From an uncultured Candidatus Saccharibacteria bacterium (GTDB lineage: Bacteria > Patescibacteriota > Saccharimonadia > Saccharimonadales > Saccharimonadaceae), in the NCBI GenBank assembly GCA_947304155.1, contig CAMZAD010000001.1:62001-126000 (forward strand): 64,000 nt of DNA, written 5' to 3'. The notes below the pieces were generated by a model. The model was not told where the DNA came from. It worked only from the letters and a program-made list of their open reading frames with translations, and searched no databases. A program made the translations under genes and the position numbers. Below, one piece after another: positions 8,260 to 44,050 of this stretch (the first letter of the stretch is position 1; every line of letters begins with the position of its first letter).

Positions 8260-8346
8260 GGGCGAATGGCGGAATTGGTAGACGCGCCAGACTCAAAATC
8301 TAGTGACAGCAATGTCGTGTGGGTTCGATTCCCACTTCGCCCACCA
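8260..8346 (+). tRNA. tRNA-Leu (anticodon CAA)
   Basis: Class II tRNA with 7-bp acceptor GGGCGAA/TTCGCCC, D arm GCG/CGC, anticodon loop CTCAAAA (CAA, reads UUG), long variable arm GACA/TGTC, T arm GTGGG-TTCGATT-CCCAC, discriminator A and encoded CCA (8344-8346). The anticodon stem has one C-A mismatch (position 28 against 42). The CCA is also the first three bases of the cruciform stem that follows. Confidence 0.95.
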
Positions 8347-8432
8347 CCGAATCGAAGAAAGCCAAAGGCTTTCTTATTTTTATTTCTAAGAAATAAAAAT
8401 ATATTTTCTAAAAGAAAATATCGATTCGGTGG
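8344..8432 (+). repeat. Perfectly packed four-way-junction inverted-repeat element after tRNA-Leu
   Basis: An outer 12-bp stem CCACCGAATCGA (8344-8355) / TCGATTCGGTGG (8421-8432) encloses three hairpins with no spacer bases. H1 is 8356-8363/8367-8374 (AGAAAGCC, loop AAA). H2 is 8375-8386/8390-8401 (12 bp, loop TAA). H3 is 8402-8409/8413-8420 (TATTTTCT, loop AAA). H1 followed by its T-rich tail can terminate the tRNA transcript. The regularity exceeds what a terminator needs. Confidence 0.85.
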
Positions 8433-8485
8433 AAAGACGGCCAAGCGATACATAAGCGAAGCGTTGTTGGAGCGGCCGGCTTACC
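8429..8485 (+). repeat. Structured motif GGCCAAGCG...TGGAGCGGCC (related to element at 56073-56177)
   Basis: GGCC at 8439-8442 can pair with GGCC at 8474-8477, and the flanking GGT..AAG pairs with CTT.ACC. An imperfect hairpin (8451-8469) fills the centre. Blocks AAGAC, GGCCAAGCG and TGGAGCGGCC recur in the same order on the minus strand of 56073-56177. Confidence 0.6.
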
Positions 8486-8504
8486 AGTATTTGTTGTTGT
8501 ATAA

Positions 8505-8532
8505 TTGACAAAACACATAAGTATTGTATAAT
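8505..8532 (+). promoter_or_regulatory. Consensus promoter of the orphan gene at 8621
   Basis: TTGACA (8505-8510), 16-nt spacer, TATAAT (8527-8532). It predicts a leader of ~80 nt, unlike the leaderless neighbours. Confidence 0.85.
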
Positions 8533-8620: not shown

Positions 8621-9061
8621 ATGGTTAAAAAAATTAAGAATGGCATGACGATGAAGGATGTTGTTATTGCTATGAGCGAAGGTAATCCCGGTGCCGCGTC
8701 GGTTATTATGAGCATGTTGCGAGACCCCATAACTTTGCCTTATGTTAGTATGCTGGATGATATGGATATTCGTGGAGCAAAGATTTATATGTTATATAAC
8801 GATTGTAGCCAACGTAATCTAGCAAAGTTTAAGAGAACCTTGGAATTGCTTCGCTCAGGTGGTTTTACACAGGAACAAATCCACTTAAATCTTGACCCAG
8901 CTGCTTATGCGACACCTTATGTTGATGACTCTATTGAAATGGATGGAGTTCCGCCTTATGGCGAAGAATTTGATATGACGCATCCTAAATGGGATGAGTG
9001 GTCTAAGGTTCAAAAAGAGTCTTTTTATCGTCGTTTTTCTTCCGAGAAAAACCGCTCTTAG
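8621..9061 (+). CDS. Hypothetical soluble protein (orphan)
   Basis: 146 residues from the ATG at 8621, set by AAAAAGGAGGG just upstream; an upstream in-frame start at 8582 lacks such a site. The basic N-terminus (MVKKIKNGMTMKD) is followed by a mostly helical domain, with a Pro/Asp/Glu-rich C-terminal third. No transmembrane or signal sequence. It has its own consensus promoter and a terminator whose loop contains the stop codon, so it is monocistronic. I do not recognise the family. Confidence 0.75.
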   Translation: MVKKIKNGMTMKDVVIAMSEGNPGAASVIMSMLRDPITLPYVSMLDDMDIRGAKIYMLYNDCSQRNLAKFKRTLELLRSGGFTQEQIHLNLDPAAYATPYVDDSIEMDGVPPYGEEFDMTHPKWDEWSKVQKESFYRRFSSEKNRS

Positions 9062-43930: not shown

Positions 43931-43978
43931 ACCAAACCAAAAAAATATAGCCCTACGGGGCATATTTTCTTGGTTTGG
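43931..43978. terminator. Two-level terminator abutting tRNA-Gln
   Basis: AAACCAA (43934-43940) / TTGGTTT (43970-43976) outer helix, with ATAT-A-GCCC / GGGC-ATAT inner hairpin and loop TACG. On the minus strand the outer arm begins in the CCA end of tRNA-Gln. Confidence 0.8.
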
Positions 43979-44050
43979 CTGGACCTGCAGGATTCGAACC
44001 TGCGAATGACGGGACCAAAACCCGTTGCCTTACCACTTGGCGAAGGTCCA
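43976..44050 (-). tRNA. tRNA-Gln (anticodon UUG)
   Basis: Acceptor TGGACCT/AGGTCCA, D arm with AAGTGGTAAGG, anticodon stem ACGGG/CCCGT with loop TTTTGGT (anticodon TTG), T arm GCAGG-TTCGAAT-CCTGC, discriminator G and encoded CCA. TAAAAT -10 box about 10 nt upstream of the 5' end. Confidence 0.96.

Follow-up and report, generated by a model that had tools for sequence, protein, structure and literature searches.

A family of folded units anchored at tRNA CCA ends in Saccharibacteria: candidate miniature mobile elements

The locus behind tRNA-Leu(CAA)

The stretch of DNA analysed here, referred to throughout as the window, comprises 64,000 nucleotides (C1:62001-126000) of the genome of a Saccharibacterium (G000) of 770,681 bases (0.77 Mb) in 11 contigs. 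An earlier note on this DNA had described a four-way junction directly behind a tRNA-Leu gene, with a 12-bp outer stem and three hairpins of 8, 12 and 8 bp, 3-nt loops and no spacer bases, and had placed its start in the tRNA CCA. Folding of positions 8344-8432 reproduced this structure exactly (40 bp in total, no spacer bases), and the tRNA boundaries given by ARAGORN (8260-8346) agree with a start in the CCA. RNAfold gave the junction an energy of -40.7 kcal/mol, whereas shuffled sequences averaged -10.9 (z -11.2) and none of 200 was as good; DNA parameters gave an identical fold on both strands. The junction accounts for the first two thirds of a longer conserved unit, of 143 nt, that ends at 8486 and has the following features:

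8260-8346 (+): tRNA-Leu, anticodon CAA, encoded CCA at 8344-8346; the anchor of the unit (ARAGORN, Rfam RF00005)
8344-8486 (+): complete unit, 143 nt, from CCA to ACCA, with four-way junction and conserved 3' hairpin (own-genome relatives, covariance models R1 and R2, covariation)
8344-8355 (+): outer stem (12 bp), 5' arm; its first 3 nt are the tRNA CCA (fold, double changes in the helix)
8356-8374 (+): hairpin 1, 8 bp, AAA loop; terminator-like with a T-rich tail (fold, terminator scoring)
8375-8401 (+): hairpin 2, 12 bp, TAA loop (fold)
8402-8420 (+): hairpin 3, 8 bp, TAA loop (fold)
8421-8432 (+): outer stem, 3' arm; its terminal TGG is able to pair with the tRNA CCA or with the terminal CCA of the unit (fold)
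8430-8486 (+): conserved 3' hairpin, the most conserved part of the family (alignment A5, pair counts, matches of model R2)
8444-8450 (+): conserved motif AGCGATA (alignment)
8467-8473 (+): conserved motif TTRGAGC, mostly TTAGAGC across the family (alignment)
8482-8486 (+): terminal TACCA, invariant in 25/25 aligned 3' domains (alignment)

In the window copy the 3' hairpin is built, in order, of TGG-A-AAG, a stem, an AA bulge, a GC-GAT/TGGA internal loop, a variable hairpin and CTT-A-CCA. Hairpin 1 (8355-8375) together with ATTTTTATTT has the form of an intrinsic terminator, a GC-containing hairpin followed by a T run. This match covers only one of the helices of the unit, and the earlier view that the junction exceeds a simple terminator holds, even though hairpin 1 with its T-rich tail still scores as one. 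Termination may be one side function of the unit, and would be plausible whether the unit is a mobile element or a tRNA trailer RNA (see below). At the gathering threshold Rfam returned only tRNA matches in the window and in 10 unit loci, and a permissive Rfam search around the unit gave chance-level matches only. The 3' part can be read as the peptide KRYISEALLERPAYQY; coding was rejected because the Val copy has an interrupted frame and Pfam returned no match, and no ORF is conserved across the unit copies. Just behind the unit lies a perfect sigma-70 consensus promoter (TTGACA-16-TATAAT; 8505-8532, + strand), which would serve a gene starting near 8621, and there is no separate terminator between the two. 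The other tRNA gene of the window, tRNA-Gln(TTG) at 43976-44050 (- strand), has a tail containing a long near-perfect hairpin that also closes on CCA (CCAAACCAA.../TTGGTTTGG).

A family of units at tRNA CCA ends

A search for the element elsewhere found relatives behind other tRNA genes, both in the same genome and in other genomes of the genus. By blastn, three further copies of 8344-8486 with 83-85% identity were identified in the own genome directly behind the Val(GAC), Ile(GAT) and Ala(CGC) tRNAs, and a fifth, diverged copy lies behind tRNA-Met. The genome thus has five units, at Leu, Val, Ile, Ala and Met tRNAs. Four of them are 72-85% alike, a likeness that does not extend into the downstream flanks. 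When 35 same-genus relatives were searched by blastn only the own copies matched, because the arms of the relatives' units have diverged beyond recognition by this method. Two covariance models were built, R1 from the four similar own-genome copies and R2 from the 3' domain alone of 25 units, the latter containing no tRNA information; E-values of these models are rough. Of 174 genomes of the genus, R1 identified units in 15, and R2 recovered the same 15 carriers with 1-5 places per genome, all of the inspected same-genus matches falling within tRNA tails. All genomes used, one for each species, are assemblies whose completeness is limited. In a phylum-wide sample of 379 genomes R2 matched only the own genome and, weakly, one sequence outside the genus (L084), which has no tRNA at the match and was judged probably a chance hit. 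Viral, phage and plasmid collections were searched without finding a convincing copy, the outcome being either no match or chance patterns, and no description of such elements was found in the open-access literature. In two variants (L040 and L035) a single 21-bp hairpin, or nested multi-arm structures of ~180 nt, stand in place of the junction.

The position of the units is exact. Twenty-three of the 24 complete units, spread over 12 anticodon types, start precisely at the CCA of a tRNA; in L032 that tRNA is truncated by the contig end. The exception, L030 of genome G027, has in place of a tRNA a 19-nt copy of the 3' end of tRNA-Glu, situated ~100 nt beyond that gene, and starts at the CCA of this copy. 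What marks the site seems to be ...CCA as an end sequence, and not a functional tRNA. On the minus strand of the same locus two units of ~80-85 nt lie behind tRNA-Glu and tRNA-Arg, their last ~19 nt repeating the 3' end of the respective tRNA, and a four-way unit is stacked behind one of them. Several units precede the tRNA's own terminator. All tRNAs of most same-genus genomes, and most tRNAs of the carriers, are without a unit. The idea that a CCA-closing helix stands behind every tRNA was dropped, such helices being found at 1/44 tRNAs in G140 and 9/46 in G149.

Shape is conserved while sequence is free

According to the earlier note, rapid and non-compensatory divergence of all arms would have spoken against the structure. 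What is observed is that the arms diverge strongly and complementarity stays. Among the four similar own-genome copies 10/56 pairs have changed on both sides, giving a covariation score of 0.170 against 0.083 in shuffles, and pairing collapses once the partners are slid. In the 3' domain 12/19 pairs show double changes (score 0.311 vs 0.114), and GGAA, GCGA, TT..AG and TACCA are invariant in the alignment; drawn as RNA, the family domain consists of UGG-A-AAG, a stem, an AA bulge, GC, a GAU-UAGA internal loop, a variable hairpin and CUU-A-CCA. Compensatory change beyond that of shuffles is thus present in both domains, although it is not specific to RNA, since DNA hairpins would show the same.

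The 24 complete units were also folded with a scoring in which G-T and A-C are equal, so that RNA energies are unable to create the result. Despite wide sequence differences the junction was recovered in all 24, the outer stem measuring 9-13 bp and each of the three hairpins 4-13 bp, with a total of 0-5 spacer and unpaired joint bases per unit (9 in L079); 54 of the 72 hairpin loops are of 3 nt. The 841 junction pairs comprise 827 Watson-Crick, 7 G-U, 3 A-C and 4 mismatched pairs, and the 453 pairs of the 3' domain include 4 G-U and 4 A-C, whereas 1380 pairs in tRNA stems of the same organisms include 95 G-U and 7 A-C (G-U in junctions vs tRNA stems: Fisher p ~3e-13). The units hence lack the G-U tolerance of RNA helices. 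Fast-changing RNA helices normally pass through G-U, and fast change without such intermediates points to DNA palindromes. This argument is suggestive rather than decisive, as other tRNA-tail hairpins taken as a control likewise show no RNA-type excess (78 G-U, 74 A-C), and we take the near absence of G-U to weigh mildly against selection as RNA. C(GNA)G triloops were considered as a DNA signature and rejected: in the units they favour the tRNA-sense strand (22 vs 5), and other tRNA-tail hairpins share this bias (31 vs 1).

Turnover and dispersal

The similarity of units follows the genome in which they reside (mean identity 0.69 vs 0.61; 0/5000 permutations). Units at the same tRNA type are no more alike than unrelated pairs (0.61; p = 0.37). 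Even between different species and different tRNAs units may be close, as in the case of the G087-Glu and G101-Ala units which are 80% alike. Gene conversion could underlie the likeness of units within a genome.

Differences in presence at orthologous sites were seen at tRNA-Ile(TAT) in the close relatives G149, G185 and G141, which share a neighbouring protein (78-100% identical) and a matching downstream flank. G149 has one unit at this site. G185 has a complete unit unlike that of G149, and behind it comes the 3' half of a G149-type unit with one base changed. G141 has no unit, and directly behind the tRNA is a 294-aa ORF with a C-terminal HNH endonuclease domain (L089:213-1094). In several arrays a complete unit adjoins the tRNA and truncated 3' domains, each ending in TACCA, lie beyond. 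In these comparisons units are gained, are lost and decay, which is the behaviour to be expected of a mobile element, although gene conversion could contribute and absence of a unit could also result from deletion between short direct repeats. The next gene behind the window copy was tried as a synteny marker and proved unusable, having only two distant homologues at unrelated loci.

tRNA tails carrying copies of the tRNA 3' end

For the own genome (39 tRNAs), G149 (46) and G140 (45), the last of which has no units, the sequence downstream of every detected tRNA was surveyed. In 26/130 cases at least 11 nt of the tRNA's own 3' end recur as an exact copy within 330 nt downstream, compared with 0.17% of 15,838 non-cognate pairs. 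The lengths of the copies cluster at 29 nt (4 cases), 21 nt (3), 18 nt (11) and 11 nt (5), and the 18-nt copies start right after tRNA position A58, a boundary also known from retroviral tRNA primer sites. Tails that bear a copy are usually bipartite: one hairpin resembles a terminator, and in the other the copied tRNA end forms the 3' strand. Between G149 and G141 such tails differ by whole units: at tRNA-Glu(CTC), G149 has a 78-nt unit ending in an 18-nt copy, placed between the CCA and the sequence that directly follows the CCA in G141, and the tRNA-Asp tails differ in the same way. The four-way-junction family is the variety of tail with the shortest shared end (ACCA), a property that makes it portable between tRNAs. 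At eight loci (L156, L165, L168, L191, L232, L233, L237 and L243) tRNA-end copies are preceded by a recurring hairpin motif, GA-[RC..GY]-AAA (GGAACTTCGTAAA, GAGCGTCCCAAGGGGCAAA). The copies so marked belong to two different tRNA positions, 48 and 66, as though both served a single element type.

Origin and possible movement of the units

On balance, and with a confidence barely above even, we read the units as miniature mobile elements, short and non-coding, that have specialised on the CCA ends of tRNA genes. The observations include the family itself, its fold, the anchoring at CCA, the dispersal over 12 anticodon types, the presence/absence differences and the truncated units downstream of complete ones. 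Several of our results lead to this reading: five dispersed units, four of them much alike and their flanks unlike, are found in a 0.77-Mb genome; 15 of 174 genomes of the genus are carriers, and the inspected same-genus R2 matches are confined to tRNA tails; similarity tracks the genome rather than the tRNA and extends across species (G087-Glu and G101-Ala); units differ at the tRNA-Ile(TAT) site and arrays run from complete to truncated; the L030 unit sits at a copy of a tRNA 3' end and not at a tRNA; and G-U pairs are scarce in the junctions, as expected of DNA palindromes rather than RNA. Among the roles proposed in the earlier note that of a recombination or resolution site comes closest, since units come and go at the ends of tRNA genes and have spread from one tRNA to another; an RNA processing guide or a protein-binding RNA would be possible roles as well.

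Such an element would insert at the CCA, starting at the tRNA ...CCA and ending in its own ...(C/T)TACCA, so that the tRNA would stay intact and a new ACCA would be left at the far end. The conserved 3' hairpin may be the recognised end, and pairing of TGG with CCA could position the unit on its target at insertion. The junction, free in sequence and conserved in structure, may act as folded single-stranded DNA during movement and/or afterwards insulate the tRNA transcript. The mobilising enzyme would probably act in trans or from an extrachromosomal element. Against mobility stands that the flanks and carrier genomes examined reveal no link between the units and a transposase or integrase. 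ORFs within 1.5 kb, inspected by eye, include no obvious recombinase; Y1_Tnp (PF01797) is absent from 14/15 carriers, the own genome among them; and the own genome has a single tyrosine recombinase gene (PF00589), presumably Xer. Tyrosine recombinases are mostly present at one per genome and their copy number does not separate carriers from non-carriers. Also against mobility is that the viral, phage and plasmid collections hold no convincing copy, and on the same searches an origin from such replicons was rejected.

The strong conservation of structure could also reflect an RNA function, and as the main alternative it is possible, if rather doubtful, that the units are functional trailer RNAs co-transcribed with the tRNA. 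Hairpin 1 and its U tract would then end transcription, the junction would shield the 3' side from exonucleases, the CCA would be hidden in the 12-bp helix until processing, and the 3' hairpin would imitate a tRNA acceptor end bound by a processing factor. The exact CCA position in 23/24 units, the covariation in both domains with invariant nucleotides in the 3' hairpin, the terminator score of hairpin 1 and the sense-strand bias of the triloops, shared with other tRNA-tail hairpins, all fit such a role, and where the tRNA's own terminator lies behind the unit read-through into it is plausible. However, most tRNAs of carriers and all tRNAs of most same-genus genomes do without a unit, G-U pairs are nearly absent, similarity tracks the genome and not the tRNA, and truncated and tandem copies occur.

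We consider it unlikely that the units are a by-product of DNA synthesis, in which template switching or slippage at the hairpin-prone 3' ends of tRNA genes, with no dedicated enzyme or function, would repeatedly copy tRNA-end sequence and yield perfect palindromes. The almost perfectly Watson-Crick arms and the excess of exact own-end copies (26/130 tRNAs) over non-cognate pairs are consistent with such a process, but exact AGCGATA, TTAGAGC and TACCA at unrelated tRNAs and in distant species would not be expected from slippage, and the copy lengths are clustered rather than random. tRNA 3' ends are classical targets of integrases, and units might accordingly be scars (attR-like ends) of cargo-less tyrosine-integrase elements once integrated there. 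The 11-29-nt direct repeats of tRNA ends in neighbouring tail types, and the HNH-endonuclease ORF that replaces the unit in G141, would agree with this. It is nevertheless very improbable, as the sequence shared with the tRNA is only ACCA (4-6 nt), too short for integrase overlap and core, the units do not look like decaying scars, being complete and conserved and present in multiple copies, and the own genome contains a single PF00589 gene.

The mobile-element reading can be widened. More speculatively, and with considerable doubt, the units may form a branch of a system of tRNA-anchored cassettes in Saccharibacteria, in which an enzyme would add short folded units at the CCA, the newest next to the tRNA, with most unit types ending in a templated copy of the tRNA's own 3' end. 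DNA insertion of this kind, polar and directed to tRNA ends, would be new, and might proceed via a folded single-stranded or reverse-transcribed intermediate. If the units are mobile, epibiotic bacteria with tiny genomes would have at their tRNA 3' ends a separate class of miniature elements, defined by shape and not by sequence, which spare the tRNA, build small arrays and turn over between species. The question of which enzyme reads a four-way junction and a CCA-ended hairpin would then be testable, and a route for site-specific insertion into the genetically hard-to-handle Saccharibacteria might be opened.

Relation to known systems

The REP/REPIN palindromes associated with RAYT (Y1) transposases resemble the units in being short non-coding extragenic palindromic repeats that are probably mobilised in trans, and CGTC-type REPs, like the units, have no known dedicated transposase (PMC3733652). 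REPs are single hairpins of 20-40 bp with high copy number and GTAG or CGTC tags (PMC3733652). In contrast the units are 143 nt long, combine a four-way junction with a second hairpin, and occur in 1-5 copies and only at tRNA CCA ends, and the own genome has no Y1 gene; a GTAG or CGTC tag is absent from the hairpin foot, the unit ends being CCA/TGG and TACCA.

MITEs and PATEs (palindrome-associated elements of IS200/IS605) are, like the units, non-autonomous, structured and dispersed; the units differ in that their site is fixed at the tRNA CCA and no matching autonomous element was found. Integron attC sites are folded imperfect hairpins with few conserved bases and a variable terminal structure, and their arrays grow at one anchored end. 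The units share the folded imperfect hairpin, the variable tip and the one-end-anchored arrays, but have no R-box pairing, no cassette genes and no integrase found nearby. In the rtT RNA of E. coli tyrT, repeats lie behind a tRNA gene and end or begin in a copy of the tRNA 3' end, an arrangement much like that of the units. The rtT repeats are confined to one tRNA operon, whereas the units stand at 12 anticodon types with a common fold and have only ACCA in common with the tRNA.
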